Part shown: positions 8,324 through 38,984 of the stretch, in pieces | Numbering within the stretch: the stretch's first letter is position 1 | Layout of the letters: every line of letters begins with the position of its first letter | Origin: Anaerolineae bacterium | Lineage (GTDB): Bacteria > Chloroflexota > Anaerolineae > Aggregatilineales > Aggregatilineaceae | Direction of reading: 5' to 3' | Length of the DNA: 59,407 bases | Assembly (NCBI GenBank): GCA_018432315.1 | Contig: JAHDLB010000022.1 | Span: forward strand, 76,247-135,653 | Notes under the pieces: generated by a model | The model's database searches: none | The model's input: only the letters and a program-made list of their open reading frames with translations | Told to the model about the DNA's origin: nothing | Made by a program: the position numbers and the translations under genes

Positions 8324-8398
8324 TAGGGCTGGATTTCCTCGTAGATTAATTTTCGGCCACTACAGGGTCCTGATACCCGCCCTTTTTTCAAACCGGTC

Positions 8399-12095: not shown

Positions 12096-12143
12096 CTCGC
12101 CACCTCCGATTGTTTCCTGGCACGATCACCCAGCCCAGAACCT

Positions 12144-15371: not shown

Positions 15372-15404
15372 ATCCTGTCTATCCTTCGTCAGCGATCGCG
15401 GAGC

Positions 15405-16367: not shown

Positions 16368-17328
16368 TGCCGTCCCCTTCATCGGCAAAATAATGAGCGG
16401 TAAGTGCCATAAGATTTCTCACTAACTGAGCCACATCTTGCTGCACACCTTCAAGGGTTAATGTCAGGGTAAGGGGACGCGCGACAGCATCACTATCGTC
16501 CGCTGAAACAGGATACTTTTCGTTATCTGAGGAAATCTGCACTTTGAATCGGTCGGCAACGCGGGTTGTCAATGGAATACTCTGTCCATCGCCACCAGGA
16601 TCCACTGCCAGCGACGTTATATCTCCGACAACTGCCCCTAATCGAGCCAAAGCTGTATCACCTAAATTGTCTGACTCGTCTGATTTTAGCTCGAGTCTAT
16701 CAAGACCTAGTTGTATATCTTCCTCAAATACTTGACGGAAAATTATGTCATCCTCAACACGCGGATTGAAGATTTTAAATTCCTCATAGGTAGGGACCGT
16801 CTTCCCCTTTAGATTCACGATTCTAAGGAAAGTGGTCTTATAGTTAATGAAAATTTGATACAAGTGCTCTGTCGTTATTTCCAATCTGTCTTGTTCAAGA
16901 AACAATCGAATAACTGGAATATTCACTGAGTTCATCAGTTCTTCGACAGCAACCGGAAACTGTCTCCGCATGTCGGAAAGATTCATATCAACAAAACCAA
17001 CAATCCGTGTCTTCTGAATTGCAACGATACCGGATCTGATATGCAATGCGAACAAGATATGGGCAAATGATCGTTCGGTAGTTGTTTGGACGTTTACTTT
17101 TGCATCATATCGGATAATTTCTTTAGCTCCTTCTTGCGTGAAGTAGCCTAATACAATACCCCTCCTATACTGGCAATCAATGAAGCCATATTGTCGGCCC
17201 TCTTCACCAAACAAATGACTTCCAGTAAACGCTCTTCCCAAGCGCTCGGCAACGAGATCATCAGTTACCGTCGAATTCCATATTCCTGAATTGAAACGGT
17301 AGCGCAGCATCGTGACTTCACGGGCCAT
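16357..17328 (-). CDS. Unknown protein in the Eco57I/SNF2 operon
   Basis: A 323-residue soluble protein of no recognised family. The start at 17328 is set by a GGAGGT six bases upstream; a longer frame from 17364 lacks a site. The N-terminal 130 residues look like an alternating strand/helix domain; the last 80 (KYPVSADDSDAVARP onward) are strand-rich and end in an acidic tail. It is translationally coupled to the membrane-protein gene (11-base overlap) and lies 165 bases downstream of the Eco57I-like gene, so the two unknown proteins probably act together. Confidence 0.68.
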   Translation of the reverse strand: MAREVTMLRYRFNSGIWNSTVTDDLVAERLGRAFTGSHLFGEEGRQYGFIDCQYRRGIVLGYFTQEGAKEIIRYDAKVNVQTTTERSFAHILFALHIRSGIVAIQKTRIVGFVDMNLSDMRRQFPVAVEELMNSVNIPVIRLFLEQDRLEITTEHLYQIFINYKTTFLRIVNLKGKTVPTYEEFKIFNPRVEDDIIFRQVFEEDIQLGLDRLELKSDESDNLGDTALARLGAVVGDITSLAVDPGGDGQSIPLTTRVADRFKVQISSDNEKYPVSADDSDAVARPLTLTLTLEGVQQDVAQLVRNLMALTAHYFADEGDGNDD

Positions 17329-17493
17329 TGTTACCTCCAAGGTGTGTTGATTCCAGCACCGCAAAACAAAGAATTTCTGAGGGTATGAGAAATGGTAGTT
17401 GCTCTAGGTTTTGCGTGAGAGATGACCTTCTATCACGGCGATTTCATCCTCATTTAGCCCGTACGCCTGAGACATTAGCGTTGAACCGAACAA

Positions 17494-20400
17494 TCATTGT
17501 TTCCCAGCGCGTTCCGGCGGCTCTATTGGCATTCGAGGCGGAGCCGTGCGCCATATCAACTCGATATCCTCCGGTGTCAGCCCATAAGCCTGATTAACCA
17601 AATTCGATAGACGTTGTTCCAGGCGACGCATCTCCGTCTGCGTAGCGTGGGTTTGCGACTCTGTCGAGAGGGCGATCAACTGTTTGACAAGTGGCTCGAT
17701 TTTTGCCCGGATTTCACCAGTCGGTTGAGCAATAGGTAGAGTTTCAGTAAATGAGTAGATCATGCGCAGCGCGTCATCTTTTCCGTGCATGGCATTGCGC
17801 CACATGAATGCCCAAAGTAACGGGGAGTTGACAACCGCCAACAAGTATAAATCATTGGTTGGCCAAACATAAGCGGTGTTAACCAGATAAACGGGGCCTT
17901 CAGTGAAAGCAAACTGTGCGCGCCAAGTAATATCTGTGTGGATAATCTTGGGTTGCTCAAAAATCTCGTAATACGCACATGATCTGAGTTCCCACCAAAA
18001 CCGACCTTGATCTTGACGCTTCCGGAGTTTTTCCTCCAACGGTTTCATATGTGCGTAGAGTGCCGGGTAAGTCTCCGCGAAAACCTGCTCGGCGCGTGTA
18101 CCTGCTTTGCTCCACGGCCAAGAATGATTTTCACTCGACTTGAGAAGGATCATCCACAACCCTGCCCACTTGGGCGTCCAGCGCTTGATATCCTGACCGC
18201 GCAGATAGGGGCGGATAATCGCCTCGCACGCGGGGTCTTCGGCCACCAGGTGATCCCTGGTTGCCGTGTCGATCAGAAAGGCTTCGTTCAGCCCGGTCTT
18301 GATTCCATAGTAGGGTTCCGCCCCAATAAACTCACGCAGCGGGACGCCTGCCGCCTGAATCTTGGCCATCAAGCGCTCGATGTCCGCGGGTTCCAGACTC
18401 CAGGGAGCCGCCGAGAAACGCTTCGCCGCAACTGGGTGGCTCTGGTCCTCGACAAAATCGCGCAGGTCCCACTGGTCGAATTCGTCTCTGGGAAACTGGG
18501 TCACGCGGACATGAGCGGCGTGTGCCGGTGTGCCATTGGCTTTCTGGAATACCACGATACACGGGAAGGTATCCGCACCCTTGAAAATCGACGCGTGGCC
18601 AAAGTCAATGATTTGCTCGATGTGCACGGAGTTGACGAAATACCCGCGCAGCTTCTCACCATAGCTTGCTCGCAGCCATTTGTTCGGCGCGATGTAGGTG
18701 ATCTGGCCATGCGACCTGAGCAGTTGAATGCCCCGTGCGAAGAAGTACACGTATAAATCTGCCGTGCCGGTGTACACCTCAGGATAGGATGCTTGCAGTT
18801 CCGGCTTCTGGTCGGTGATGGCTTCCATGCGCACATAGGGCGGGTTGGCAACCACCACGTCGAATCCGCCTTTGCGCGTGAAGACCTCGCTGAAGTGCAG
18901 CCTATACAGAAAGAATGGCAGTGTGGCTTCCGGGTTGCGCATGGTTTCCTGCAAGTCGGTGATACGCGTCAATCTGGCGCTGGCGTCTTCGAGCTTGCGC
19001 TGATCGGTGCGGCTCAGGATGCCGCCTGCCAGCGCAGCTTTTTTGCCCAGGTGGTCGATTTGCGTTTGCAGCGCTTCGGCCTTTTCCTTCAGGCTCGAAA
19101 AGACAATCCGCCGTTCTTGAGCGGTGATCTCTTCGCGCAACTGGCGGCGTTCCTCCGGTGTTGCGCGAAAGAACTGCTGACGTAGTTCGTCGAGCCTGAC
19201 GCGTTCCTGCTGGGTCTGTTTTTCGGACTCAAATAACCCCATGCGCATCTGCATCGGGTTGGGATCGAACATCTTGAGCTGCGAGTCGGTGTGCTCCCAT
19301 TCGTCTTTCGCCGATGCATCCAGCATAGCCGTGGCGCTATCCGTCAGTACCGGCTCGCCGTCGATAGTTTCGATCAGGCTGTTGCCTGCCATGAGTTTGT
19401 AGTCCAGGTTGGGTAGGGGCCGCGCCTGCTCGATGGTCTGGTCCACCACTAACGCCAGCCACAGCCGAAGTTGGGCTATCTCAATCGCTTCTGGCTTGAT
19501 GTCTACGCCGTAAAGCGTGTCGCGGATGATCGCTTCTTTCCAGTCAGCCACCAGCGCCGGAGTGACCTCAACGTCCAGTGCGCTGGCACAAGCTCGGCGC
19601 AGCAGAATGATCTCTCCCAGCATCCCAATCAGGAATGAGCCGCTGCCGACTGCCGGATCGAGCACGGTCAAGGTGTCCAGTGCGGCGTTTATGCGCTGCG
19701 CTTCTTCTGGCGTGAGGGCTACATCAGTGTCGGGATCAAACTGGGCGCGGGTAGTCTCGCGTGGGATATTCGCGCTCTCTTCCAGGTATCCAGCCAACGC
19801 TTCCTGGCACATGTACGAGACAATCGTGCGTGGCGTGTAGAAGCTACCCGTCTGGCCCCGGTCACGCTCTTCGAGCATGTTTTCGAAGACCTTGCCGAGC
19901 ATTTCCGGATCAACGGCCACGTCCTGTTCAAGCGGGGTATCGTCGGCAATGGTGAAGTTGTAGCGGTTGAAAAACGCGAGCAATCCATCGCTACTGTTCG
20001 GATCAAACAACGAGTCTGGTAGGACAATCAAGCCCTCTGGATCACGCGATTTATCGAACAACCCACCGTTGAGATAGGGAATCCGGACACCTGGCCAGCG
20101 TGTGGCATTTTCGAGCCGCCGCGTATTCATCGTTTCAAAGAACAGCGGCTCCAGAACCTCGGTGTAGTAGTAAAACGTTTCCTGATCACCCCGGAACTCA
20201 CCGGCATGACGCCGCACGGTTTCAATAAACTGGTCGCCCAAGAAGCGCTTTTGTCCGCCAAGCCATCCCTTACGCTGAAGGAAATAGAGAAACATCAACC
20301 GGCCTAACAAGCGCTGAGTGAAGGCGTGCAGCTTGGCTTCCTGGTCGGCGTTTTGGAATTCGGGAATGCCCCGGTTGTAGTGGCGAATAGCTTCGCGTGC

Positions 20401-20946
20401 GAGGTCGTAGTGAACTTTGTACTCGTCGTAGAAGCGCTTGGTGATCTTGGTGACGTTGAAGGCTTCGGCCTGCGCTTCATAGACCTGCTGGCCTGTACGC
20501 CGGTGGGCGTGAATGGTGTTCAGGGTGTCAAGGTCGTGGCGCGTTGGATCGCTCACGATCATCTTCAGCTTGTCCACGCGCACATTGCTTTTGGTAGGAT
20601 TGCCGACAAACCGAGGGTGAGCGAAGACAATCTCGCGATAGTCACGGGTTACAACAAGCAGGGCTGTCCCGCTCCGTTGGAGCGCGTTCCAGGCCAGTCC
20701 GCGCAGTCGTGTTTGGCGAAGATCATCGACCTCGTACAGATAGACCGCGTGATTGTCGAGATTGGACACGACGTAGGCGCGGTTAACTGAGGCCACGTCA
20801 ACTTCGTCGAGTTCTAGTTCATCCAGATCAGGACCTTCGAACGGCTCTGGCTCATACACTGGATATCCAAGAAGCCGGAATAGTTCGTGAATGTCAGCGG
20901 CGGAACGAAGTGACAGATGTTGAAATCCCAGGGAACTGATCGACAT
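17494..20946 (-). CDS. Eco57I-type methylase/restriction protein
   Basis: An 1150-residue protein of the Eco57I/type IIG kind. A helical N-terminal region (about 1-330) precedes the methylase core. AdoMet motif I is LDPAVGSGSFLIGML (near 429) and catalytic NPPY is in VVANPPYVRM (near 699), giving N6-adenine methylation. A coiled segment lies between them (about 560-650). The C-terminal 350 residues, with IRPYLRGQDIKRW, match the TaqI-like target-recognition domain. No clear PD-(D/E)XK nuclease motif was found at the N-terminus, so cutting may rest with the PLD-SNF2 protein two genes downstream. It starts at ATG 20946 behind AAGGGTGGG and is the first gene of the island's minus-strand run. PglX of BREX has similar length and domains, but no other BREX gene is present. 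Confidence 0.85.
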   Translation of the reverse strand: MSISSLGFQHLSLRSAADIHELFRLLGYPVYEPEPFEGPDLDELELDEVDVASVNRAYVVSNLDNHAVYLYEVDDLRQTRLRGLAWNALQRSGTALLVVTRDYREIVFAHPRFVGNPTKSNVRVDKLKMIVSDPTRHDLDTLNTIHAHRRTGQQVYEAQAEAFNVTKITKRFYDEYKVHYDLAREAIRHYNRGIPEFQNADQEAKLHAFTQRLLGRLMFLYFLQRKGWLGGQKRFLGDQFIETVRRHAGEFRGDQETFYYYTEVLEPLFFETMNTRRLENATRWPGVRIPYLNGGLFDKSRDPEGLIVLPDSLFDPNSSDGLLAFFNRYNFTIADDTPLEQDVAVDPEMLGKVFENMLEERDRGQTGSFYTPRTIVSYMCQEALAGYLEESANIPRETTRAQFDPDTDVALTPEEAQRINAALDTLTVLDPAVGSGSFLIGMLGEIILLRRACASALDVEVTPALVADWKEAIIRDTLYGVDIKPEAIEIAQLRLWLALVVDQTIEQARPLPNLDYKLMAGNSLIETIDGEPVLTDSATAMLDASAKDEWEHTDSQLKMFDPNPMQMRMGLFESEKQTQQERVRLDELRQQFFRATPEERRQLREEITAQERRIVFSSLKEKAEALQTQIDHLGKKAALAGGILSRTDQRKLEDASARLTRITDLQETMRNPEATLPFFLYRLHFSEVFTRKGGFDVVVANPPYVRMEAITDQKPELQASYPEVYTGTADLYVYFFARGIQLLRSHGQITYIAPNKWLRASYGEKLRGYFVNSVHIEQIIDFGHASIFKGADTFPCIVVFQKANGTPAHAAHVRVTQFPRDEFDQWDLRDFVEDQSHPVAAKRFSAAPWSLEPADIERLMAKIQAAGVPLREFIGAEPYYGIKTGLNEAFLIDTATRDHLVAEDPACEAIIRPYLRGQDIKRWTPKWAGLWMILLKSSENHSWPWSKAGTRAEQVFAETYPALYAHMKPLEEKLRKRQDQGRFWWELRSCAYYEIFEQPKIIHTDITWRAQFAFTEGPVYLVNTAYVWPTNDLYLLAVVNSPLLWAFMWRNAMHGKDDALRMIYSFTETLPIAQPTGEIRAKIEPLVKQLIALSTESQTHATQTEMRRLEQRLSNLVNQAYGLTPEDIELIWRTAPPRMPIEPPERAGKQ

Positions 20947-21254
20947 GACCCACCCTTGAAAAACATAGTCTCTGAAAAACAGAAATCACTGGCATCACAA
21001 AGGCAGCCAAGTCTGCCCTATACCACGGAAATAGCGCTACATTACGCCGTTCTTACTATGATAGGCAGAACGACAGAATGCGCAATAAAACTACGACGGC
21101 ACAGTATGGTCCATTCATGAAACATCTGTGAATTTGTCACTCTGCACGTTACTCCAGGCAGAATTCGTGTCCTCATTCGGGGTTGTTAAGAAGCATCCAC
21201 AGCCGATCATGACACGTCCAAAAAACTGCGCGAGAATGCGACTACTTGAGACCA

Positions 21255-21439
21255 ATCTACGGTCTCCCCTACGGTAACCAATAACCGTAGTTTTCTCCCG
21301 AAAACAGACCAAGATCTACCGAAAATACTACGAACTCCCCCTCCGAACCACACCCCACCACTACGTATATGTGAGAGAGGGCGGGTTTTTGATTCACGGA
21401 ATTTTCGTTCTTTTGAATTTCTCTGAAAGAGCGTTTCAA
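21255..21439. repeat. Long structured direct repeat, copy 1
   Basis: About 185 bases that recur in the same orientation at 25684-25869, with most positions identical over the whole length. Inside are CTACGGT at 21257-21263 and 21269-21275 and its inverse ACCGTAG at 21284-21290; the second and third form a hairpin with an 8-base loop. GAGACC/GGTCTC flanks this hairpin in copy 1 only. A shared ACTACGTATATG core and a purine-rich GAGAGAGGGCG follow. Both copies lie upstream of minus-strand genes (here the Eco57I-type gene, about 300 bases away). It may be a regulatory leader, a replication or transfer site, or the scar of a duplication. Confidence 0.8.
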
Positions 21440-21630
21440 GTGTTGTGGGGGCCAAAAAGACAATCCGCGGTGAAATCGGGTAGAATTCCTCGCAGTATCA
21501 CATTGTAATGAGCAACATTTCCCCGCAAGGTTATCAACCAGTGATCGTCAACCAGATAAGAAGAGAGATAAGCGAGGTCATACAACACAGTGCGACCTGG
21601 CCTGAGACGCGGTTCAAGCAATGGACCCGA

Positions 21631-21822
21631 TCAACAGTATTCCGCAGAGATTGCGTCAATCATCGGACTGCCCGCCAAGAGCGCCAGTCTGCGTCGGTCC
21701 GCTGTTATCTCTAACGGGTCGAGCAGCAAATCACCCTCCAGTAAATCGCTGGCCCATAGACCCAATGCACCCTGAGGATCACCAACAAGATTGCCGGACA
21801 ACGAATTGACTTTGCCGAACAT
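21631..21822 (-). CDS. Possible small hypothetical gene or remnant
   Basis: A 63-residue frame starting one base after the stop of the frame upstream (TGACATG arrangement), with AAGGG seven bases before the ATG. Its composition (LLEGDLLLDPLEITADRRRL) looks protein-like, but no family is recognised. It may be the downstream half of a frameshifted gene together with 21824-22027. The surrounding stretch from 20947 to 21630 holds no other gene, only the direct repeat. Confidence 0.3.
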   Translation of the reverse strand: MFGKVNSLSGNLVGDPQGALGLWASDLLEGDLLLDPLEITADRRRLALLAGSPMIDAISAEYC

Positions 21823-21823
21823 G

Positions 21824-22027
21824 TCAGGCCCTTCGGCTGCGGTGTTCCCCGCTCAACTCGCGCCACACCAGATCATAGAGGGCGGCGGTTCCGGTCGCGC
21901 CACCGCCAATGACCAGCCCCCACAGAGGTTGTGGTCGAGGCAGTTCTCCTACCCTGACAGAAGATGAAGCGCAGTCTGGTCGAAAGCTTGGCACGCCAGG
22001 CTGCGCCCTGTCAGTAACACCCATCAT
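21824..22027 (-). CDS. Possible small hypothetical gene or remnant
   Basis: A 67-residue frame with a hydrophobic glycine-rich segment (WGLVIGGGATGTAALYDL) about residues 36-53. No family can be named; the glycine pattern is short and could be a membrane helix or chance. It is placed between the zinc-ribbon membrane gene and the 63-residue frame, on the same strand, and may be a degraded gene. Confidence 0.28.
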   Translation of the reverse strand: MMGVTDRAQPGVPSFRPDCASSSVRVGELPRPQPLWGLVIGGGATGTAALYDLVWRELSGEHRSRRA

Positions 22028-22090
22028 GTTTTGCCGCGCAGAACGAGCCGAACGACAGGGGAGCGCGGCGCGGTATCCGTCCAGACTCCT

Positions 22091-22732
22091 TTATTCGCGT
22101 AGACCGGCGTAGAGGAATTCATGCAAGTCGGCTGGGTGACACCACTCGCCAGTTTCCGGATCGAAGACAATATCATCGCGGAAACAGTAGTAAAGGCCGG
22201 CCCAGCGAGCCATGGCCTGTTCCCACAGGACACGCTCAGCCGCGAGGCGCTCTTTCTCCTTGCTGTAGCTGCCCCTTCTTCTCGAAATATACAGGACAAA
22301 AAGCCCACAGAAGACTGCCCCGCAAAAAACATTAGCTGCTCCTCCGGAGTCACCAGAAATAAGCCCAACCACAGCCCCTAGGACAAGCAATATTGACAGA
22401 ACGGAGAGAGCTATCAAGCTGCAACCATCCCACAGCGGACCGATCTTGAAGTACAACCATTCATTGAACCCTTCAGGCATAAGCCAGGCCCTGCGATACC
22501 AAGGCAAGCGCACTTTAGGTTCGTCTGGTGGCATTAAACGCTGGGCTAGCAAAGTGCTCGCAGTACCACTTGTTGCCGAAGGCCCTCCGAACGCCCCCCA
22601 CTGACCGCCTGAGTATGTAACCCCTCCAAAGCCCCCGGACGACCTCACCTCGCTGATTCCTCCTACCACCGCTGCCTGGACTTTCTGTATCCGATCATCA
22701 TGACCGCACTGTGGGCAAACTACACCGGACAT
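22091..22732 (-). CDS. Zinc-ribbon membrane protein
   Basis: A 213-residue protein whose first residues form half of a zinc ribbon (MSGVVCPQCGHDD, C6 and C9); a second CxxC pair is not seen, so the ribbon may be incomplete. A Gly/Ser-rich linker follows. Two membrane helices lie near residues 100-145 (SLIALSVLSILLVLGAVVGL and NVFCGAVFCGLFVLYI). The C-terminal cytosolic part (WARWAGLYYCFRDDIVFDP-like) resembles short tails of unknown function. The start at 22732 is chosen because AAGGAG lies about eight bases upstream and it places the cysteine pair at the N-terminus. Role unknown. Confidence 0.72.
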   Translation of the reverse strand: MSGVVCPQCGHDDRIQKVQAAVVGGISEVRSSGGFGGVTYSGGQWGAFGGPSATSGTASTLLAQRLMPPDEPKVRLPWYRRAWLMPEGFNEWLYFKIGPLWDGCSLIALSVLSILLVLGAVVGLISGDSGGAANVFCGAVFCGLFVLYISRRRGSYSKEKERLAAERVLWEQAMARWAGLYYCFRDDIVFDPETGEWCHPADLHEFLYAGLRE

Positions 22733-22842
22733 TTGTATATTCTCCTTTCTCAAAATGAAAGCCGATCGAAACAGACAACGCAATTGGGGTGAGCAGGCGC
22801 AATAATGTTTGAAACGCAGTGCCCCGATCTACAGATGGTCAT

Positions 22843-23526
22843 TTAGCCAGCAGGAGCGTCATATGTGATACTCTCAATGATCTCGTAGGCGATGCCTTCG
22901 AAGCCAGCCAATTCTCCTTCGAGGGCTTGCATTTGTATCCACGCTAGCCAGTCATCATCGAACTCGTAAGCGATGTTGAAGCCGTACGACTTGGTATCAC
23001 TATCGATAAAACTGGCCCGTGCAGCTTCGATTGTCCCGATAGTTACCGCTTCTACATTGCCGAACTGAAAACTATCCCCATCTGACGGTGTCATGTCAAC
23101 AGGCGTGTAAAACATCTCCATCACTCCCGTGACGCCTACACTTTTCACTGCTGCCACATCAGATACGCCCAAAGCGGCAGCAAGATCGGCCCAACTTACG
23201 GTATTTATAGTGAGAAAGAACCCCCCTGCTGGCATCTGACCTGGTGCATCGGAGTCGAGGTTATCGAGTACGGCCTGCGAGTTAGCTACGACCGCATATA
23301 CCAGGGGCCCCTCTACGAGATCGCGCGCGACCCAGCCTTGCGGGTAACGGAGCGTCACACCGTTAGCCGACACGAATGTTTGCGGTAGCGATGTGTCAGC
23401 ACTACCATTGGCTTCATCTTGGCTAACCTCGTTTTTGCTGTCGCTGCCACCGCACGCGGTCAACGCCAACGATGAAACGATCAGCAGGATGAGCAGTAGT
23501 AAACCGGATTTACGGTACATAACCAT
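22843..23526 (-). CDS. Secreted lipoprotein
   Basis: The N-terminus (basic YRK, a long leucine stretch, then SLALTAC followed by GGS) is a classic lipoprotein signal, with the lipidated cysteine about residue 25. The mature part of about 200 residues begins with an acidic linker and then holds a domain with VTLRYPQGW and a C-terminal ITYDAP. This resembles the PsbP/DUF1795-like fold of other lipoproteins, but that is tentative. ATG 23526 with AAGGAG six bases upstream is preferred; ATG 23541 also has a site (spacing 11). It follows the secreted hydrolase gene by about 90 bases and may be co-transcribed. Confidence 0.8.
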   Translation of the reverse strand: MVMYRKSGLLLLILLIVSSLALTACGGSDSKNEVSQDEANGSADTSLPQTFVSANGVTLRYPQGWVARDLVEGPLVYAVVANSQAVLDNLDSDAPGQMPAGGFFLTINTVSWADLAAALGVSDVAAVKSVGVTGVMEMFYTPVDMTPSDGDSFQFGNVEAVTIGTIEAARASFIDSDTKSYGFNIAYEFDDDWLAWIQMQALEGELAGFEGIAYEIIESITYDAPAG

Positions 23527-23612
23527 TCTGTTCTCCTTCATGGTTGATAAATCTCCTTCGCAGTTGATGTTCGGATAGTGATAGTTGTGAACTGGCATGG
23601 TATAGAAGTGGC

Positions 23613-25343
23613 TTAACTGCCTGGCACATTCCACAGTTGCACAGTGCCATCTGTACCTCCGGAGAGCTGGTGAAACTCCCGCGCTTCTTCTACCGCATCC
23701 TGGACGGTCTGATCGGTAGCCTGGTAGCTCAGGTCATACGCCACGATCCGCAAGGCAGCGCGTTGTTCCTCGGGTAGCGCAGCCAGCGGTGAGTTGTGGA
23801 ACAGTTCTTCCGGGAGTCCGATCAACCGTCGTTCATGTACTGCTGTGTCGATCACCAGGCCGCTTTCATTATCAACCCAATACATCGCGTTGTACTCATA
23901 GTAGTATTCCAGGGGCACCTCCCCTTCCCAGGTTTCAAACAAACCAGGCATCGCGTTCTTGATCGGGTCCGGCATATCACTCGCGACGATCAATCCGATA
24001 ACCTGCTCTTTAGAGAATACCAGTGGAAGCTGCATCTGCTGAATCACCGCCGGATCAATCACGTGGGGCCCGCCACTGGCCGTGAATAGGGATAGAAACA
24101 TACCGCTGCGTTCGTGCATCTCCCAACCGTCATATGTGAGTGTTACAGCGATGCGAAGATCATCTGACCACATGGTATAATCGCGCGGCTGCACATTGGA
24201 AGGCCAGTCAATGGGAACCAGACCCTCACCATCCCACAACCCTACCTGTCCCGCCCATGCGACCGGAAAATCGCGTACAAGCTCCATCGTACGGGTATCA
24301 ATCGGATAGTGGGCCACACGGTGCAAGAGCGGTTGTCCAGACCAGCTTAGCTCCTGGTCATTGCGAACAAGCGCCAGCGTGCCGGCTGTGTGATCTACCA
24401 GGCTGTAACTACTCACCAACGAGACGGGAATATTGCGCAAAAACTGCAACGTGCTGGGGAATAATATCACTTGCCCTATGCCATCATAAGTCCGTACTCT
24501 CTTGAGCGAGGCTTGCTGCGAAATCGGAGGTGACTGAACAGCACTTTCTGTCGGCAACGCATCCAAGTAGGCTTCAAGGCCATGTTGCCAGTGTTCGTGA
24601 GGAATAGGAAATTCCGAAACGAAACAGGGGAGGTCAGGTATATTGAAGGGTTCAGGGGCCGGGCCATCATTCACGACATACCATGCTTGCTGATAGTTTC
24701 TGTAGGCTTGTTCGGAGCGTTGTTCCCGGCAGGTGTTCTCTGCAACAACGGGGACGGGGTCGGAAGAGAAAACCACATGCAAATATCGTGGCCCTTCAGG
24801 AAAGGAGGCAGCAAACCCGCCCAGGGTGATCACGTTGACTTGGCGAAGACGATTAGCACGTTCACGATAGTTCATTGCGAACTCCATGAGCGCAGCTGAT
24901 GTGATGGCTGCACCTTGACTGTGTGCGACGATCGTCACCTCATGGTCGTACAACAGCAAATAGGTCAGGAGCTTTTCAACAGCCGGGTTTATCGGGCCTT
25001 TGCGTTCAAGGCCCAGGCCTTGTCTTAAGTCGTCAAAACCTTGAGCGATATCAGAGAACTCCCCTTCAGTCGCATTGTAAATACCGATCACATCAAGGCC
25101 GGAAAAGACATTCGATACTCGTATCAGTCCATCCTTATGTCCCGGAGCGTCCGTCAGTATTCCATTCACGAAAATCACATCCGCATCCGCGGCTTTGATG
25201 GGCTTCAATGAGGTTAAGATACCATCACGGTAGTCCTTTGGAGCCTGCACGACCTCCAAATCGAACTGGGCGAGTGTGGCCGCTGGAGTCAGCAAACTAA
25301 CGAGCAGAACAACAGCGATCAGACGGAGAGCGTTTTTGGTCAT
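23613..25343 (-). CDS. Secreted alpha/beta hydrolase with a WD40-like tail
   Basis: A protein of about 576 residues with a signal peptide (MTKNALRLIAVVLLVSLLTP, cut near ATLAQ). An alpha/beta-hydrolase part has the nucleophile elbow AHSQGA (near 160), as in lipase- or PGAP1-like serine hydrolases. A strand-rich middle (about 270-480) mentions many tryptophans. The last residues, GGTDGTVQLWNV, look like the closing strand of a WD40 blade even though no WD40 array precedes them. The start at 25343 has GGGAGA upstream; a longer frame from 25493 would bury the signal peptide. Copy 2 of the long direct repeat lies about 340 bases upstream. Confidence 0.75.
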   Translation of the reverse strand: MTKNALRLIAVVLLVSLLTPAATLAQFDLEVVQAPKDYRDGILTSLKPIKAADADVIFVNGILTDAPGHKDGLIRVSNVFSGLDVIGIYNATEGEFSDIAQGFDDLRQGLGLERKGPINPAVEKLLTYLLLYDHEVTIVAHSQGAAITSAALMEFAMNYRERANRLRQVNVITLGGFAASFPEGPRYLHVVFSSDPVPVVAENTCREQRSEQAYRNYQQAWYVVNDGPAPEPFNIPDLPCFVSEFPIPHEHWQHGLEAYLDALPTESAVQSPPISQQASLKRVRTYDGIGQVILFPSTLQFLRNIPVSLVSSYSLVDHTAGTLALVRNDQELSWSGQPLLHRVAHYPIDTRTMELVRDFPVAWAGQVGLWDGEGLVPIDWPSNVQPRDYTMWSDDLRIAVTLTYDGWEMHERSGMFLSLFTASGGPHVIDPAVIQQMQLPLVFSKEQVIGLIVASDMPDPIKNAMPGLFETWEGEVPLEYYYEYNAMYWVDNESGLVIDTAVHERRLIGLPEELFHNSPLAALPEEQRAALRIVAYDLSYQATDQTVQDAVEEAREFHQLSGGTDGTVQLWNVPGS

Positions 25344-26065
25344 CGTGATCTCCCTCAAATCCAAGACCCGCGTGAGGGTTGACAGTACAGTGAATGGCAG
25401 GACGACATCCTGGTATTTGCTGCGTTTGAATGTATCACGGATGAGGTCGGCAACAGACCAGATGAAACTGACTTTCTCGCTGAGAGTATTCACTACTCAC
25501 CCCGCAGACAATCAACTACAAGAGTGGATGAAATCATCTGAGTAGCTTGATTAAGGGCGCAATAATAATCAGAAACAAGATCCACCCTGTCGCCAAGTAT
25601 ACTCATCGCGCTCAGGCCGGAAAGTGAAGATGCTCACCTGTGCTTCTCAAGCATAATGAGAATGGACATCCCGACACAGAGCTATCTACGGTCTCCCCTA
25701 CGGTAACCAGTAACCGCAGTTTTCACCCAAAAACAGGCCAAGGCCTACCGAAAAATACGACGAACTCCCCCTCCGGACCACCCCCACTACTACGTATATG
25801 AGGAGAGAGGGCGGATTTTTCGATTCGGCGATTTCTTGCACTTTGAATTTCTCTGAATGAGTGTTTCAGGTCTGCTCTTCAATGGCTTTGCTTTGCATCT
25901 GCCAGGCTTTGGTCTGGAGATCTGCGTCCACTTCCGTGACCACCTCCCAGCCTGTTGATATCAGCCACTCAGAGACCGCTGAAACATACGCATGTCATTC
26001 TCAACAGCGCCATAACGCATAACACGAAAGCGCAGCCGCAAACGGTTCACTCCCTGATCTGCCCC
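25344..26065. other. Non-coding stretch holding the second direct repeat
   Basis: No gene is supported in this segment. It holds the upstream region of the hydrolase gene, repeat copy 2 at 25684-25869, and then about 200 bases leading to the promoter of the small tandem genes at 26.1 kb. Confidence 0.6.
25684..25869. repeat. Long structured direct repeat, copy 2
   Basis: The partner of 21255-21439, same orientation, about 186 bases, starting at ATCTACGGTCTCCCCTACGG and ending near GTGTTTCAG. CTACGGT occurs at 25686-25692 and 25698-25704; the inverse copy is degenerate here (ACCGCAG), so the hairpin of copy 1 is weakened. The purine/pyrimidine tract and the ACTACGTATATG core are kept. Confidence 0.8.
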
Positions 26066-26107
26066 TTGTTTGTTATACGTATTGTTATATAATATTAAGT
26101 AACAATA
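26066..26107 (+). promoter_or_regulatory. Promoter with overlapping inverted-repeat operator
   Basis: TTGTTT (26066-26071) and TATAAT (26088-26093) are spaced by 16 bases. The inverted repeat TATTGTTA (26080-26087) / TAACAATA (26100-26107) straddles the -10 box and would let a dimeric repressor shut it. A second TATAAT at 26110-26115 lies nearer the gene. It controls the tandem pair that follows; the ribosome site AGGAGGT is at 26123-26129. Confidence 0.7.
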
Positions 26108-26131
26108 CATATAATAGATAACAGGAGGTAT

Positions 26132-26485
26132 ATGACACAACCTGAATCACTAGAAGACCTTTACGCGCAAGCCGTCGAGGCTATCCCCTACGATCTGGAA
26201 CCCACCAGCGTCACGGTGGGCGAGTTTGAACCGGACAGCGCCGGTTATGTTGAGTACTCGGAAGAGTTCACTTTCAAAGTCGGCCAGTTGTTTGATATGG
26301 ACCTGATCGCCGGTGGCTGGGTGGAATTACGCCAGGAAGATGGCGAGGTCACTATCACGGCGTTCATGGGAATTGCCCGTGACGGAGACTGGCAAAAGGG
26401 CCGCATCCTGCCAGATGATTCGGCACTCCAGGGAGTGTACGACCTGGAAAACGAAACCTGGGAATTCTGGATTGATCAATTCTGA
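26132..26485 (+). CDS. Small acidic protein, tandem paralogue 1
   Basis: A 117-residue acidic protein of no recognised family. It shares with the next gene the N-terminal ESLE, the PYDL block, a VEYSE.F segment, the exact string VGQLFDMDLIA and an aromatic end (WEFWIDQF versus WRFWIERH), so the two arose by duplication. The strand-rich pattern suggests a small beta fold. It starts at ATG 26132 behind AGGAGGT, under a promoter with an inverted-repeat operator. Acidic small paralogues like this on mobile elements can be DNA mimics, but nothing here proves that. Confidence 0.72.
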   Translation: MTQPESLEDLYAQAVEAIPYDLEPTSVTVGEFEPDSAGYVEYSEEFTFKVGQLFDMDLIAGGWVELRQEDGEVTITAFMGIARDGDWQKGRILPDDSALQGVYDLENETWEFWIDQF

Positions 26486-26510: not shown

Positions 26511-26864
26511 ATGACCCATCACGAATCACTCGAAACCATGTTTCGTCAGGCGCTTGCTGCCATGCCCTACGACCTGAAACCTGTCGGAAACCCGATGGGG
26601 GAGCTTGAACCAGACAACACCGGTTCTGTCGAATACTCAGAAGACTTCACGGCTATCGTTGGGCAGTTATTTGATATGGACCTGATCGCCGTAGTTAGTA
26701 TCACGTTGCAGCAAATAAATGAGACCATAACTATCACCGCGAAAATGTACGTTGGCGGCACTGGCGATCTGGATTATGAACCTATATTGTCAAGTTACAC
26801 CTCATCCTGCGCAGCGTACGATTTCAAAACCCATAGATGGAGATTCTGGATAGAACGACACTGA
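26511..26864 (+). CDS. Small acidic protein, tandem paralogue 2
   Basis: A 117-residue paralogue of the preceding gene, with the same AGGAGGTAT ribosome site just before ATG 26511. A longer frame from 26313 only overlaps the first gene and is not used. It differs mostly in the middle (residues 60-100), while the shared VGQLFDMDLIA is unchanged. No family recognised. Confidence 0.72.
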   Translation: MTHHESLETMFRQALAAMPYDLKPVGNPMGELEPDNTGSVEYSEDFTAIVGQLFDMDLIAVVSITLQQINETITITAKMYVGGTGDLDYEPILSSYTSSCAAYDFKTHRWRFWIERH

Positions 26865-27144: not shown

Positions 27145-28167
27145 TTGCCATCAATTCAGTCCATTTCAGCCGTTTTGTATAATGTTCGTGTGAGGGGCAG
27201 GGAAAAACCACCGTCGCCAGAATTAGACCGCACGATTTTGCGCCGGTACGCCAAGACTTTCATCCCCCGACAAGACTGCTACCCCATCCAAACCGAAGAC
27301 GGACGCTACCTGACGATCAAGCGTCGTTTCCAACTCGACTACTTACAGGCCCATCTCAAAGGCATCATGACACTCGGCGCGTATGCGCTGGATGAGCACA
27401 GCCGGGCCCGCTGGTTGTGCCTAGATGCCGACATGCCTGAACAGTGGGGCGAGCTGCTCAAAATGACCAAAGACCTGGAACAGGATGGCATCACTGCCTA
27501 CCTGGAGCCCTCCCGACGTGGCGGGCATTTGTGGTTGTTCTTCTCCCCTATTCCAGGAGCAACCGCCCGGCAGTTTGGCCAGCGCCTCCTGGGACGCTAT
27601 GGCCTACAAGGCATCGAGCTTTTCCCTAAGCAGGATGTGCTCAAAACAGGTCCTGGTTCACTGGTCCGCTTGCCACTGGGTAAACATCGCCTCACCGGGC
27701 AGCGGTATTACTTTGTCACACCTGAAGGTGAACCCATTGCGCCAAGCGTGCGCGAGCAAGTACGCCTCATGTCAGCCCCGCAGATTGTGCCACCTGACTA
27801 CATCAGGCACGTGTCCACGGAGCGATCACCAGTTGACCTTTCCCAGGTCAAGCCACTCTTCCCCGAAGCCAGCCACGAGCCAGCCGGAGCCACGCTATCC
27901 GAGCGCCTGAAAAACTCGATCAGCGTCTACGATTTTGTGCGACGCTACGTCGAACTCGACCAAAACGCGACCGGCTGCTGCCCTTTCCATGAGGACCAAC
28001 ATAAAAGTTTTGGCGTGAACCGAGAGGAAAACTTCTGGCACTGCTGGGCAGGCTGTGGCGGTGGCAGCATTATCGACTTCTGGATGAAATGGCGACAGCT
28101 CCAGGGATTGGACTCCAGTTTTACCGCGACCATAAAGTCGATGGCAGATATGCTTCTGCCGCGCTGA
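27145..28167 (+). CDS. AEP-type primase with CHC2 zinc finger
   Basis: A 340-residue archaeo-eukaryotic-type primase. The catalytic DxD is LCLDADMP (D94, D96), the conserved RRGGHLWLF (about 123-131) supplies the histidine, and SLVRLPLGKH is the third block, as in plasmid and TOTE-type primases. The C-terminus has a CHC2 zinc finger: CCPFHEDQHKSFGV then FWHCWAGCGGG (about 277-305), the form known from DnaG. That combination puts two primase families' parts in one protein. The start is unclear: TTG 27145, or GTG near 27190. It probably primes replication of the element, next to ParA and the HTH initiator-like gene. Confidence 0.84.
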   Translation: MPSIQSISAVLYNVRVRGREKPPSPELDRTILRRYAKTFIPRQDCYPIQTEDGRYLTIKRRFQLDYLQAHLKGIMTLGAYALDEHSRARWLCLDADMPEQWGELLKMTKDLEQDGITAYLEPSRRGGHLWLFFSPIPGATARQFGQRLLGRYGLQGIELFPKQDVLKTGPGSLVRLPLGKHRLTGQRYYFVTPEGEPIAPSVREQVRLMSAPQIVPPDYIRHVSTERSPVDLSQVKPLFPEASHEPAGATLSERLKNSISVYDFVRRYVELDQNATGCCPFHEDQHKSFGVNREENFWHCWAGCGGGSIIDFWMKWRQLQGLDSSFTATIKSMADMLLPR

Positions 28168-28316: not shown

Positions 28317-29066
28317 ATGACTATCTCTGTCGCCTCGCAAAAAGGCGGGGTTGGGAAAACAACCACTTCAATCGCCCTCGCCGCCGGACTGGGAAGACAA
28401 GGCAAACACGTTTTACTGATCGATATTGACTCCCAGGCAAATTCCTCGAAAGTTTTGCTGGAAAACTACCCCAAGATCTCTAAAGATGACACGATTTATA
28501 CCACCGTCTTGGAGCGCAATCCCCTGCCGGTTCACCCAACGAGAATTCCAGGTGTTGACCTGGTTCCCTCACACATTTTGCTCTCCAATACCGATATCGA
28601 GCTGACAACAGCCAAAGACCACCGTGAGGCCCGGCTGAAAACCCAGCTAGATCAGATGGCGGGCAATTACGATCACGTCATCATCGACTGTCCTCCCACC
28701 CTTTCCTGGCTGACCATCAACGCGTTCACTGCCTCGGACAAGGTGTTGGTGGTAGTCTCACCTGGCTACTTTGAGCTCGACAGTATCAATCAAATCAACA
28801 AGACCCTGCACGAGGTCAAGGAATACTTCAACCCATCCCTGGAACTACTGGGCTACTTGTTCACTATGAGCGACTCGACCATCAATAGCAGGACATCACT
28901 GCAAATACTGCGCCAGTCGTATACCAGCCAGGTGCTCAACACCATCATTCCCCGCAATACGGATATTCGGGATGCCCATTTCAACAAGACCGACATTTTT
29001 GACTACAACCCAAACGCCCTGTCGGCCAAGGCCTACCAAACCCTACTCGAGGAGATCAGTTTATGA
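28317..29066 (+). CDS. parA: ParA-type partition ATPase
   Basis: A 249-residue ParA. The deviant Walker A KGGVGKTTT (about 9-17) is at the N-terminus, motif LLIDIDSQANSS follows, and the Walker B-like VIIDCPPTLSWL is near 125. It is the short form without an N-terminal DNA-binding domain (type Ib or chromosomal size). ParA binds DNA non-specifically in the ATP form and moves a partner-bound centromere. The ATG is preceded by GAAAGGAAAAT. It overlaps the next gene by four bases (ATGA), so the two are one partition operon. Confidence 0.92.
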   Translation: MTISVASQKGGVGKTTTSIALAAGLGRQGKHVLLIDIDSQANSSKVLLENYPKISKDDTIYTTVLERNPLPVHPTRIPGVDLVPSHILLSNTDIELTTAKDHREARLKTQLDQMAGNYDHVIIDCPPTLSWLTINAFTASDKVLVVVSPGYFELDSINQINKTLHEVKEYFNPSLELLGYLFTMSDSTINSRTSLQILRQSYTSQVLNTIIPRNTDIRDAHFNKTDIFDYNPNALSAKAYQTLLEEISL

Positions 29067-29521
29067 AAAAGAAGTTAGAGACCAGCTCGATTATGAATGA
29101 GCTTCAGGAAGGCTCGGCTTTTTTCCGCGATCACACCCCTTCTCCTGCGCCAGCCACCAGGTCAAAAAAAGCGTCACCGGCAACCACTCCCTCAAATCCG
29201 ACGAAGAAATCGGAGCAAATCCCTAACACTACCCAAAACCGAACGGTCGAACGGTCTGACCGAACGGAATCACCGAACGGTGATATGGACAACACACACT
29301 CAACGAGTTCTGTGCTTACTTCAATAGATGACCCACAAGATGAAGACAAGCGCTTGACCGAAAGATATAGCTTTGAGATCTATACCGACCAGAAAGAAGT
29401 GATCAATGACGCGAAATACCTTTACTACAAGAAGACCGGGAGAAAGGTGTCATCGAGCGAGCTTATTCGCGACGCCTTGGATATCTTTCTCACACGGCTC
29501 ATGGAAAAACTCGAGGACTAA
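29063..29521 (+). CDS. ParA partner, ParB/RHH-like
   Basis: A 152-residue protein overlapping parA by ATGA. The first 100 residues are low-complexity, rich in S, T, P and K, and probably disordered. The C-terminal 50 (YSFEIYTDQKEVINDAKYL, then SSSELIRDALDIFLTRL) have the strand-helix-helix look of a ribbon-helix-helix DNA-binding domain, as in type Ib ParB proteins. It would bind the partition site and stimulate ParA. Four CGAACGG repeats lie inside its own linker-coding region. Overlaps the next gene by one base (TAATG). Confidence 0.75.
   Translation: MKKKLETSSIMNELQEGSAFFRDHTPSPAPATRSKKASPATTPSNPTKKSEQIPNTTQNRTVERSDRTESPNGDMDNTHSTSSVLTSIDDPQDEDKRLTERYSFEIYTDQKEVINDAKYLYYKKTGRKVSSSELIRDALDIFLTRLMEKLED
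29240..29280 (+). repeat. Four CGAACGG iterons inside the partner gene
   Basis: CGAACGG occurs at 29240-29246, 29248-29254, 29261-29267 and 29274-29280, in one orientation, with start-to-start steps of 8, 13 and 13 bases. They sit in the low-complexity part of the coding frame. This could be a centromere (parS-like) or replication iterons; the coding frame alone does not demand the repeats. Confidence 0.6.
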
Positions 29522-29883
29522 TGGAGCACATCGGCGCATCACTGGCCAAGTACGAGCAGATCATCCTTGAAGGGTTTGACCCGATATCCGCGCATGGCTT
29601 TACCCAGGTACCCAACGTCGTGCTGCGTGATGCGAATTTATCTCCCGGCGCGAAGCTGTGTTACGCGATGCTGTTGAGCTACGCCTGGCAGAAGGATAGT
29701 TGTTTTCCTGGTCAGGAAGCACTCGTCAAAGACACCGGTATCTCGAAGCGATCCACTGTGCGCTTCATGAAGGAGCTTGAGCAATCCGGCTACCTGGAAA
29801 AGAAGCGCAGAGGTTTGGGAAGGACGAACGTTTATACCTTGCGTAGCAGGGTAGAGAAGGCCGAAGTGAGGCGTAAAAAGTAG
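29521..29883 (+). CDS. HTH protein, replication-initiator-like
   Basis: A 120-residue winged helix protein (HTH_36 kind). VPNVVLRDANLSPGAKLCYA then SCFPGQEALVKDTGISKRST and MKELEQSGYLEKKRRG trace helix-turn-helix plus wing. This domain is common in plasmid and ICE replication proteins that bind origin DNA. It is shorter than the full initiators, so it may be a control protein. It is the last gene of the parA operon (TAATG start). Two palindromes lie 14 bases after its stop. Confidence 0.78.
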   Translation: MEHIGASLAKYEQIILEGFDPISAHGFTQVPNVVLRDANLSPGAKLCYAMLLSYAWQKDSCFPGQEALVKDTGISKRSTVRFMKELEQSGYLEKKRRGLGRTNVYTLRSRVEKAEVRRKK

Positions 29884-29896
29884 AGCTACCAGGCTT

Positions 29897-29940
29897 GAAG
29901 TGCCAAATTGGCACTTCTGGAAGTGCCATTTTGTCACTTC
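29897..29940. repeat. Tandem 21-base palindromes
   Basis: GAAGTGCCAAATTGGCACTTC (29897-29917; two 10-base arms around one base) is a perfect palindrome. A second, imperfect copy of the same sequence is at 29920-29940. Centres are 23 bases apart, about two helical turns, which suits cooperative binding of a dimeric regulator. There is no T run, so it is not a typical terminator. The HTH gene just upstream encodes the obvious candidate binder. Confidence 0.7.
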
Positions 29941-30547
29941 CCTATATAGAATAAGAATATTAAGAAAGAAGAATATTAAGTTTAGGCGATTTCAGTTTTT
30001 CTTTTTCGGCGAATATGCTGGCACTGCACCTGCTACTCAGGCGCAGATTTCCACCCTCACTTCCGCTATGACCCCCGCCAGTAGCGCGGCGGCCCCGGAA
30101 GGGTCGTGGAAATAATGGGCCAGCACTTTGTCGCCTTCCTCAAGCAGGGTATTCGCTCCACCGGTTGCATTGATCGACCAGAGGTCAGCCAATTCACCAG
30201 TTACACTCAACCCCACCATCGTCAGGCGACCCCCCGTCGGCCTTCTGCGCTTGATGACGCCTCGCTTGAAGCCCGACCGCCCCGGTCGCCGCCGCCTTTC
30301 ATGAAAGATGTGTGATTTTGAATGTGTCCCAAGCATGTGTATCGATCTCGCAGGTGAGTAGGAGCGGCGGGCGTCGGACGCGGGTAGCTGACGATGAGGC
30401 TGCCAGCCACCACGCTCGCCCAGGGCGGTCGGCCTTACAGGCCGACGGGGGAGAACCCAGGAACTTGGCCGCGTCTGCCGCCGAGTGCCGTTGCCGAATG
30501 CTCAAGTGGAGTAGAAAACCCCTCCGGTGTCCGGTACACTGCAACAA
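29941..30547. other. Gene-free GC-rich region with hairpin
   Basis: About 600 bases without a convincing gene. A strong hairpin GTCGGCCT-TAC-AGGCCGAC lies at 30428-30446 in a GC-rich tract, just upstream of a replication-relaxation gene and near the coupling ATPase. That is a plausible setting for an origin of transfer or replication. A minus-strand frame (30037-30219) has some protein-like character but no recognisable match. Confidence 0.45.
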
Positions 30548-31453
30548 ATGGAGATGTTTCCGCTCAAAAAAGCGCCCACTCAGGCCAGGCGACCGAAAAA
30601 GCCCGCCCCGATGCAACTAACCCAGCGCGATACCCGCATCATGGAGGCGATCCACGCGTTTGACGGTGTGCTGGCGGATTATCAGGTTCGACGGATGTTT
30701 TTCACCGGCGAGCGACAATCCCGAGGCCGTTTGAGCCTGCTGTTTCAGCATGGTTATCTGGTCAAGCCCAGCCGCGCTCAGCGGGCGGGCTTGCCGTGCA
30801 TGGTCTATTGGCTGGGCAAGAGGGGAGCGGCGCACGTGGCCGGGTTGCGGGGTCAGACGCTCAAGGAGTTTGCCTACCGGCGTGAGCCGCGCTGGGCGCA
30901 AATTGCCCACGACCTGGCGGTTAATGATTTTCGAATGGATGTAATTGAGGCGTGCCAAGACAACCCGGACTTCACGCTGGAACAGTGGATTCCGGAAGGG
31001 GAGTTCTGGGCCCACCCGGACCAGATCGAGTACAAGCAAGCTAGTGGCAAGAAAGCCAAGCGCCTGGTGCGCCCAGACGGATTTTTCGTCATCAAGCACG
31101 GCAGGCATTACTCCAGGTTGCTGCTGGAAATCGACTGTGCGACCGAAGACAATCCTCGTTTTGCCCGCGAGAAAGTGCGGCCTGGTGTTGCTTACCTGCG
31201 CAGCCGCGAGTACAAGCAGCGCTTTGGCTTCCAGTCCGGGCGCTGGCTGGTGGTGACAACTGGCGAGCGGCGGATGCGCAATCTCAAACAACAAACAGAA
31301 ATCGCGGTGGGTAAGGACGCGCAGGTGTTTCTATTCACCACCGCCAACAAAGTGACGCGTCAGAGCGTCTTAAACGACCCAATTTGGTTTCGTGGGGGCG
31401 ATGACCAACCCACGGTTCTCTTTCCAAACTCTAACACTATTTTTGGGTTCTAG
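30548..31453 (+). CDS. Replication-relaxation family protein 1
   Basis: A 301-residue protein of the replication-relaxation family. It begins with a basic leader, then a winged-helix (LTQRDTRIMEAIHAFDGVLA, then a VRRMFFTGERQS segment). The C-terminal part (about 150-300) shows FFVIKHGRHYSRLLLEIDCATED and a nuclease-like strand arrangement. Members occur on plasmids and ICEs next to VirD4-like ATPases and are thought to act on origin DNA. The start at 30548 lacks a clear ribosome site. A paralogue follows the ATPase at 34457. GC content is higher than in the parA block. Confidence 0.78.
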   Translation: MEMFPLKKAPTQARRPKKPAPMQLTQRDTRIMEAIHAFDGVLADYQVRRMFFTGERQSRGRLSLLFQHGYLVKPSRAQRAGLPCMVYWLGKRGAAHVAGLRGQTLKEFAYRREPRWAQIAHDLAVNDFRMDVIEACQDNPDFTLEQWIPEGEFWAHPDQIEYKQASGKKAKRLVRPDGFFVIKHGRHYSRLLLEIDCATEDNPRFAREKVRPGVAYLRSREYKQRFGFQSGRWLVVTTGERRMRNLKQQTEIAVGKDAQVFLFTTANKVTRQSVLNDPIWFRGGDDQPTVLFPNSNTIFGF

Positions 31454-34438: not shown

Positions 34439-34456
34439 TGCCTGAGGGTGAAACGT

Positions 34457-38542: not shown

Positions 38543-38550
38543 ACCCCGCG

Positions 38551-38811
38551 ATGAGCGAAGACACCATCACCCTACCAACTTCGACGTTGGAGAAATTCTC
38601 GCAATTGGCTCAGTTATTGGAGCAAGCAGGGCGGCTGGCGCGTGAGATCAGCCAGGAGAAACGCGAGTCCATCGCCGATTCTCAGTCTTGGTACTGGACG
38701 CAGATGTGGCAAACGCTGGAACGTGAGGCAGATAACGCCCTGGCAAAGGGCGAGTATCGCGAATTTGACAGCGCCGAGGCGCTCATTACCGACCTACACG
38801 CCCATGTATGA
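38551..38811 (+). CDS. Antitoxin of duplicated TA locus, copy 1
   Basis: An 86-residue protein nearly identical to the one at 43456-43716. Residues 11-63 differ at only a few places. It is mostly helical (STLEKFSQLAQLLEQAGRLA), fits small RelB-like antitoxins and overlaps a RelE/ParE-type toxin start by four bases. Its toxin here is cut short, so it may now be an orphan that still binds the intact toxin from copy 2. Confidence 0.8.
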   Translation: MSEDTITLPTSTLEKFSQLAQLLEQAGRLAREISQEKRESIADSQSWYWTQMWQTLEREADNALAKGEYREFDSAEALITDLHAHV

Positions 38812-38984
38812 AAGTGGTCTATCTTCGACCATTTGCCAAGCAGTATAAAAAGTTACCTGCGAAAGTCCGTGAGAAATTTGATCAGCGGCTACGTCGCTTG
38901 GTGAAATACCCCCAACACCCATCTCTGCGCGCCCGCAAGATGGTCAACCGCGAGGAAGTCTGGAAATCACCATCAAGTCTTTAA
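38808..38984 (+). pseudogene. Truncated RelE/ParE-type toxin
   Basis: The first 53 codons match the full toxin at 43713-43970 (MKVVYLRPFAKQYKKLP, RKMVNREE). After GAAGTCTGGAAATC the sequence diverges abruptly and a TAA follows, leaving 58 residues instead of 85. The missing part includes the C-terminal strand with the catalytic end. The breakpoint marks a recombination or deletion edge just before the cysteine-rich surface gene. Confidence 0.85.

Follow-up and report, generated by a model that had tools for sequence, protein, structure and literature searches.

Among described conjugative systems, the ones that come closest to the locus of this study are those of the MOBC relaxases, such as TraX of pAD1 and MobC of CloDF13. 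According to the part of the source drawn on here, MOBC relaxases are related to the PD-(D/E)XK enzymes, TraX carries an N-terminal winged helix-turn-helix (HTH), and its bind site consists of five direct repeats located approximately 70-120 bp from the nick site, nic (PMC12857230). The origin of transfer (oriT) of the IncA/C plasmids is a site of approximately 150 bp with inverted and direct repeats, and the same source, in the portion used here, describes a separate recombination site (hot spot) of an IncA/C plasmid that mimicked an oriT (PMC5587640). In this study, we show that a 59,407-nucleotide stretch of the genome of an Anaerolineae bacterium (contig JAHDLB010000022.1; hereafter the window) holds two copies of a repeat, and that this repeat is a non-coding DNA site conserved among mobile islands of one family in Chloroflexota. 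We believe, with a confidence that stands about midway between doubt and conviction, that it is a discrete DNA site acting in cis in integrative elements that target tRNA-Glu, and most likely a candidate oriT.

Copy 1 (21255-21441) and copy 2 (25684-25871), both on the plus strand, are identical in 154 of 189 alignment columns (81.5%), and blastn of the organism's own genome recovers copy 2 with 85% identity over a 194-bp place (E=5.3e-52). The syntax TACGGT-N5-CTACGGT-N4-A-N-T-N-ACCG, with up to three mismatches allowed, occurs twice in the window against 0.03 occurrences expected, and none of 100 shuffles reached two. These results confirm the near-duplicates in the same orientation that were noted in a preliminary description of this DNA. 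The CTACGGT motifs, the hairpin and the ACTACGTATATG core that it listed are all present too, but the hairpin is a DNA inverted repeat, CTACGGT-N8-ACCGTAG (ACCGCAG in copy 2), whose folding as RNA is inconsistent between the copies. In the 5.69-Mb genome, blastn and a sequence-only model (R1) find just two long copies, both within one integrated element; a third own-genome blastn match, of 57 bp, corresponds to the flank of copy 1 and lies outside the conserved element.

Both copies are intergenic and lie at the junction of cargo and the replication/transfer core. Block A of copy 1 begins 311 bp from the start of a type IIG restriction-methylase gene, while copy 2 stands at the head of the core, with 312 bp between the end of its block B and the gene that begins at 26132. 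No gene in the window starts within 300 bp of the blocks, and the gene runs flanking the conserved element point away from it. Each copy does lie upstream of a minus-strand gene run, as had been described; copy 2, however, is also upstream of a plus-strand run, from 26132 onwards.

The conserved element is built of two blocks. Block A (21257-21290 in copy 1 and 25686-25719 in copy 2, plus strand) contains two direct CTACGGT heptamers and an inverted ACCGTAG and may be a protein-binding site; its consensus is CTACGGTYTCSYCTACGGT-N4-A-R-T-W-ACCGYAG, with GTACGGT at the start in one genome (G001). Block B (21353-21390 and 25782-25820, plus strand) reads CCCACYACYAYGTATA followed by GAGA, a G-rich stretch and TTTTT, and could be a nic-proximal or a melting segment. 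The gap from block A to block B is 62 bp, and the two together span 135 bp. Across the five copies from which R1 was made (two from the window's own genome, G000, two from G007 and one from G001), 76 of 196 columns are invariant and these are clustered: the best 35-column window holds 25 of them, a value reached by 9 of 10,000 column permutations, and the variance of invariant columns in 20-column windows was reached by 1 of 10,000. Invariant columns make up 10-25% of such windows between the blocks, 45-70% of those in block A, and 55-65% of those in block B. The copies group by genome in a tree (support 100 for the two window copies and 86 for c1 and c2 of G007), and identity is higher within a genome (81.5% in the window, 71.7% in G007) than across genomes (59.8-68.8%), which indicates that they were either homogenised by recombination or duplicated separately.

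At E<=0.01, R1 matched 4 of 151 genomes of the order, namely G000 (two places), G007 (two), G001 (one) and G004 (one). The copies of G000, G007 and G001 are part of the R1 alignment, so R1 is independent evidence for G004 and G219 only; for c1 of G007, independent evidence comes from a profile made of the four remaining copies, which recovered it (E=2.2e-42 among the loci collected). Blastn over 61 relatives had returned three genomes including the own one and missed G007, whose copies were first recognised by eye and later scored by the profile and by R1. The G004 copy (E=0.004 with R1; 30 bases at 97% by blastn) is truncated to block A, and the G004 element is cut beside a transposase gene that is IS256-like by eye. 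When 396 genomes of the class were searched with R1 at E<=0.001 under stricter filters, two matched, G000 and G219; G004 falls below this cut-off, and G001 and G007 were unmatched, presumably because they are outside the sample. The G219 match (C246:1379-1434, E=1.4e-7) is a block A and the sole R1 match outside the family. Within the family, four genera are represented among the copies, and another family of the class has block A as well. The preliminary description had considered that a lack of other copies would favour a one-off duplication; copies are in fact present in G007 (two), G001 and G004, with block A in G219.

Blastn at E<=10 matched 15 of 18 family genomes, the best match beyond the known copies having E=0.15. 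A pattern with up to two mismatches matched 17 of 298 class genomes, free of mismatches only in G000 and G004, and a reversed control matched more often. A pattern search of a genome contig collection gave four matches, of which two are the G004 and G001 copies and two were judged chance from the surrounding bases. Blastn of copy 2 against phages and plasmids gave no match, and in viral contigs a 21-base pattern matched exactly once, at a place considered unrelated from the approximately 460 bases around it, and two other patterns did not match.

The window amounts to almost one integrated element, approximately 59.5 kb long (C20:75824-135315). At its right end, a large serine recombinase gene (57294-59105, plus strand; Pfam Resolvase), the presumed integrase, overlaps by its 3' end a tRNA-Glu(CTC) gene (59068-59140, minus strand), the integration target, and the same junction is found in G001. 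The attachment (att) core GCCCCATAGGGGACTC, which is the tRNA 3'-end sequence, starts at 59069 and recurs with two mismatches at C20:75824, inside the 3' portion of a further serine recombinase gene, immediately to the left of the window; the same core with the same 20 following bases recurs beyond the defence cargo of G004. It is from these matches that the window is taken as approximately one integrated element. The orientation of the att core relative to the serine recombinase gene is opposite in G000 and G001 to that in G007 (window 59060-59145; L080:9886; L081:18621), as if integration were possible either way. The element also encodes a small XerD-like tyrosine recombinase (44538-45185, plus strand), which is conserved in G007 (89% identity) and G001 (87%).

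In G007, c1 (C3:2074756) and c2 (C3:2121826) are 47 kb apart. The arrangement is like that of the window: c1 lies upstream of an orthologue of the restriction gene (78% protein identity) and c2 upstream of an orthologue of the gene at 26132 (67%), and the left flank of c2 contains a degraded copy of the 5' end of the restriction gene and of the intergenic region. Between c1 and c2 there are an att remnant (2107887), a serine recombinase gene and a second, divergent core (primase 53%, ParA 44%, VirD4 39% and recombinase 56% identical to those of the window), and therefore the two copies belong to two tandem units with one copy each. The intact tRNA-Glu of G007 is at C3:2028869-2028942, and the region C3:2028869-2216429 is a tandem array of approximately 190 kb at this gene, in which several serine recombinase genes occur together with att remnants; the part read at 2150-2170 kb had only recombinase matches to the window. 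Integrative elements standing in tandem at the 3' ends of tRNA genes are a known arrangement. The islands resemble it in the att core at the tRNA-Glu 3' end, in the several units in a row of G007 and in their defence cargo, and differ from it in joining a large serine recombinase to a Replic_Relax/VirD4 core, in elements of Chloroflexota that are as yet uncharacterised. The copy pair of the window is probably a collapsed tandem array: two tandem elements, as in G007, may have been joined into one by a deletion whose break would lie at the insertion sequence (IS)-type remnant (21444-21627) adjoining copy 1. Over 185 bp this remnant shares 80% identity with contig C59, where the match adjoins a transposase gene whose plasmid matches are mostly annotated as IS5 family.

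Two proteins of the family PF13814 (Replic_Relax; E 1.2e-19 and 2.6e-29) are encoded at 30527-31453 and 34448-35332, on either side of the gene for a VirD4/TrwB-type coupling protein (31745-34438), all on the plus strand. PF13814 is given as a MobC-type relaxase in a table of PMC5357655, and judged by this family assignment the element would encode a MOBC-type relaxase. Replic_Relax protein 1, the MOBC-like relaxase candidate, also matches a PHROG family annotated as replication initiation by nicking (E=2e-9). Its structure model, made from a seven-row alignment (A6; predicted local distance difference test, pLDDT, 70.8; predicted template modelling score, pTM, 0.67), resembles MarR-type winged helices such as MepR (Z 7.3) at residues 30-108, and in its C-terminal part it resembles restriction-type nucleases, among them BstEII (Z 8.6), the nickase N.BspD6I (8.2) and FokI (7.5), which we take to be PD-(D/E)XK enzymes. 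The predicted combination of a winged helix with a PD-(D/E)XK-like fold supports, and falls short of proving, a relaxase of this kind. In G219, moreover, a Replic_Relax gene (305-1333) is followed 47 bp further on by block A in the same orientation. The product of this gene matches PF13814 (E=9.7e-16) and is 36% identical to the protein of G007 unit 1; on the same 3.7-kb contig the gene is preceded by the zinc-ribbon end of a primase, 61% identical over 66 amino acids to the window primase. A Replic_Relax-like gene is present on the Herpetosiphon plasmid pHAU02, and CTACGGT-N8-ACCGTAG is absent from the stretches of it that were examined.

The conserved DNA blocks, the MOBC-like relaxase-family and coupling proteins and the relaxase-family neighbour in a distant genome are the reasons for considering the repeat a candidate oriT, and the same three points make the origin-like site the favoured one of the three readings offered in the preliminary description. 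An oriT is preferred to a vegetative origin of replication (oriV) mainly because block A of G219 adjoins a Replic_Relax gene. In the mechanism that we propose, the MOBC-type relaxase would grip the direct and inverted CTACGGT repeats of block A and nick at or near block B, which is perhaps close to nic, and the VirD4-like coupling protein would then take the nicked strand for transfer. The repeats of block A and block B, 135 bp together, would agree with the MOBC layout of bind site and nic, for which block B offers a candidate nic position. As far as the part of the source used here describes them, the MOBC oriT systems are alike in relaxase type, by family assignment, in the predicted winged-helix and PD-(D/E)XK-like architecture, and in having a repeat-type bind site apart from a second conserved segment; they differ in that pAD1 has five direct repeats where there are here three heptamers, direct and inverted, and in host phylum and integration module, and the present relaxase gene is 4.7 kb away with block B as only a candidate nic region (PMC12857230). 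The IncA/C oriT, in the portion of its report considered, was shown experimentally and overlaps the mobI promoters, whereas the site described here is known from its sequence and has no gene start within 300 bp of the blocks (PMC5587640).

Several observations weigh against this interpretation. In the partial view that we have of PMC11104534, a table row places Replic_Relax beside MOBT and not MOBC labels. The structural matches of Replic_Relax protein 1 are near background, with a best Foldseek E of 5.7e-3 and none at E<=0.001, and Z scores of approximately 8 may themselves represent background. In the window, 4.7 kb separate the conserved element from the first of the Replic_Relax genes; only in G219 are the two adjacent (47 bp), and its 3.7-kb contig has no convincing block B. 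Pfam scans of 38 window proteins, a subset of the ORFs (open reading frames), matched no mating-pore family, and self-transfer is therefore not established; what is shown extends to an integrative element that encodes relaxase-type and coupling proteins. The left att site differs from the core at 2 of 16 positions, and with that many mismatches a reversed control also gives one match in this genome. The rule of one copy per element rests on the two G007 units and on the incomplete element of G001, whose contig begins 9.3 kb left of its copy, and R1 finds no copy in G007 beyond 2148.6 kb, where there are further att remnants. The collapsed-array history is drawn from arrangement only. Finally, a second apparently non-coding stretch (29884-30526), directly upstream of Replic_Relax protein 1, is as conserved as the repeat or more so in three elements (50-bp windows 22-86% identical, compared with 50-54% for three windows within the element), making it a rival place for an oriT or oriV; oriT and oriV functions could be divided between the two.

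The alternative that survives best, which we nonetheless consider rather unlikely, is that the repeat is an iteron-type oriV or a partition centromere of the excised circle, bound by the HTH_36 initiator or by the ParA partner, with binding at the block A repeats and melting in the T-rich stretch that follows block B. The element does head a run of primase, ParA, partner and HTH_36 genes, the HTH_36 protein matches phage replication-initiation families, the flanking gene runs diverge from the element, and short direct repeats would fit an iteron site. Three heptamers per copy are few for such a site, however, and the run of ParA, partner and HTH_36 occurs in G452, G207 and G106 with no block A in the stretches examined (HTH_36 is found in 13 of 396 class genomes, and stretches from 5 of the 12 beyond the own genome were inspected). 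Moreover, block A of G219 adjoins Replic_Relax, and no ParA- or HTH_36-like ORF was seen on that short contig, for which no profile search was made.

It is improbable, in our judgement, that the repeat is a site-specific recombination site for loading cargo, at which a circle with one copy would insert, through site-site joining by the relaxase or through the small XerD-like recombinase, and end flanked by two. The cargo of the window indeed has direct copies on both sides, to the left of block A both copy 2 and the G001 copy border on unrelated DNA, and the small recombinase is well conserved in G007 and G001. But a single flanked cargo has been seen, and the G007 copies lie in separate integrated elements. 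None of the three cargo proteins matched among the loci collected at that point, and the cargo gene that was searched occurs elsewhere only as partial matches of 32-46%. The right edge of copy 1 meets the IS-type remnant, and ungapped identity falls to the left of block A in all pairs, even those with a common outer flank, so that this edge need not be a crossover point. The arms of a recombining cassette, as they were termed in the preliminary description, thus find no support in other genomes and remain conceivable for the window alone. A related and slightly more remote idea combines both functions: the transfer origin could double as a loading dock, where two copies recombine by the relaxase or the small recombinase and circles insert cargo, including defence genes. 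This would explain why the left cargo meets the right core at the site.

We regard a small or leader RNA that ends at the G-rich stretch and T5 of block B as very unlikely. All five long copies retain T5 behind a GGGC-type stretch, the plus strand of copy 1 folds better than shuffles (z -2.20; minus strand -1.81), and copy 1 is accompanied by matches resembling a promoter (21209-21237, just upstream) and a terminator (21269-21290). Copy 2, in contrast, folds no better than shuffles (z +1.04 and +0.40), and neither the promoter nor the terminator match is repeated in copy 2, in G001 or in c1 and c2 of G007; shuffles yield such matches too. A further promoter-like match lies outside the copies on the minus strand (21132-21103), the region holding four matches against 0.9 in shuffles. 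The covariance analysis proposed in the preliminary description was run (alifold and pair counts) and compensatory changes were negligible, the outcome which that description had associated with a one-off duplication: changes on both sides were found in 1 of 24 predicted pairs (five sequences) and in none of the 7 main block A stem pairs (seven sequences). An Rfam scan of 20800-26400 gave three matches below the gathering score and none on the copies. The conserved leader RNA that had been suggested is therefore unsupported. Equally unlikely is a plain remnant duplication without function. Remnants flank copy 1, and copies are more alike within a genome than across genomes, as would be expected of a recent duplication or of gene conversion; on the other hand, the block motifs are kept across four genera, and block A in another family (G219), while the spacers diverged.

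The remaining candidates were rejected. A miniature inverted-repeat transposable element would require many dispersed copies, where the 5.69-Mb genome has its two long ones in one integrated element, and an attachment site does not agree with an att core at tRNA-Glu and near C20:75824 and copies that are internal. Integron gene cassettes carry attC sites, and the locus is similar to them in having cargo between direct imperfect-repeat sites together with a XerD-like recombinase; here, however, there is one cargo and no array, and the tyrosine recombinase scores 21.9 bits compared with an integron-integrase cut-off of 265.

With regard to the remaining genes of the element, the plus-strand core opens with a small protein of unknown family (26132-26485), which among 61 genomes is present only in G000, G001 and G007, has no match in plasmids or viral contigs, and has a tandem paralogue (26511-26864); of the two duplicates, only the first can be paired one to one with genes of G001 and G007. 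Just upstream of it, at 26070-26120, is a palindromic promoter-like stretch, TTATACGTATTG...CAATACATATAA, which is operator-like in appearance and largely conserved in three elements. There follow an archaeo-eukaryotic primase (AEP) with a DnaG-type zinc ribbon (27145-28167), a ParA ATPase (28317-29066), a partner labelled by eye as ParB/RHH (ribbon-helix-helix)-like, for which no family matched (29063-29521), and the HTH_36 replication-initiation-like protein (29521-29883). The triad of ParA, partner and HTH_36 recurs in other families of the class (L117, L118 and L121), with ParA 66-70% identical to that of the window; ParA also matches at least 5000 plasmid records, each at less than 60% identity, which is uninformative. 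Further along are a direct repeat of 300 nucleotides (38544-38843 and 43449-43748, 93% identical) that holds duplicated small genes, and a protein of 1292 amino acids with four LamG-type domains (48550-52428). After the second copy of this direct repeat comes a weak match to a ParE-like toxin (43713-43970) that scores under the Pfam cut-off; no such ORF is listed for the first.

Between the copies, the content is to be corrected from the membrane protein, lipoprotein, hydrolase and two possible remnants first described to three minus-strand cargo genes (22091-25493) and remnant DNA at 21444-22090. The genes are 22091-22783 and 22843-23634, a membrane protein and a lipoprotein by eye, the latter with a lipobox-like LTACGG in its translation, and 23613-25493, which has an ATG start at 25346, a VAHSQGAA motif and a Pfam PorA domain. 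The protein of this last gene (23616-25346) was found in 21 of 151 order genomes including the own one, in the others at only 32-46% over part of its length. To the left of copy 1, also on the minus strand, are the Eco57I-like type IIG restriction-modification gene (17494-20946), an orthologue of which adjoins the element in G007 and G004 too, and a defence cargo (3143-17364) composed of HerA, Gabija-like GajB/GajA (8399-12095), an HKD and Snf2 helicase and genes with no family match.

Titles and abstracts searched under the name Chloroflexi, Chloroflexota not being covered, contained no oriT for this phylum. An oriT is a known kind of site, and the present candidate would add a member in this element family and phylum. 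If it is borne out, it would provide a testable candidate oriT for the serine-recombinase islands that occupy tRNA-Glu in Chloroflexota and carry Gabija-like, HerA and type IIG restriction genes. Moreover, it would show where cargo is placed relative to the transfer origin in such islands, and it would serve as a handle for finding related ones.

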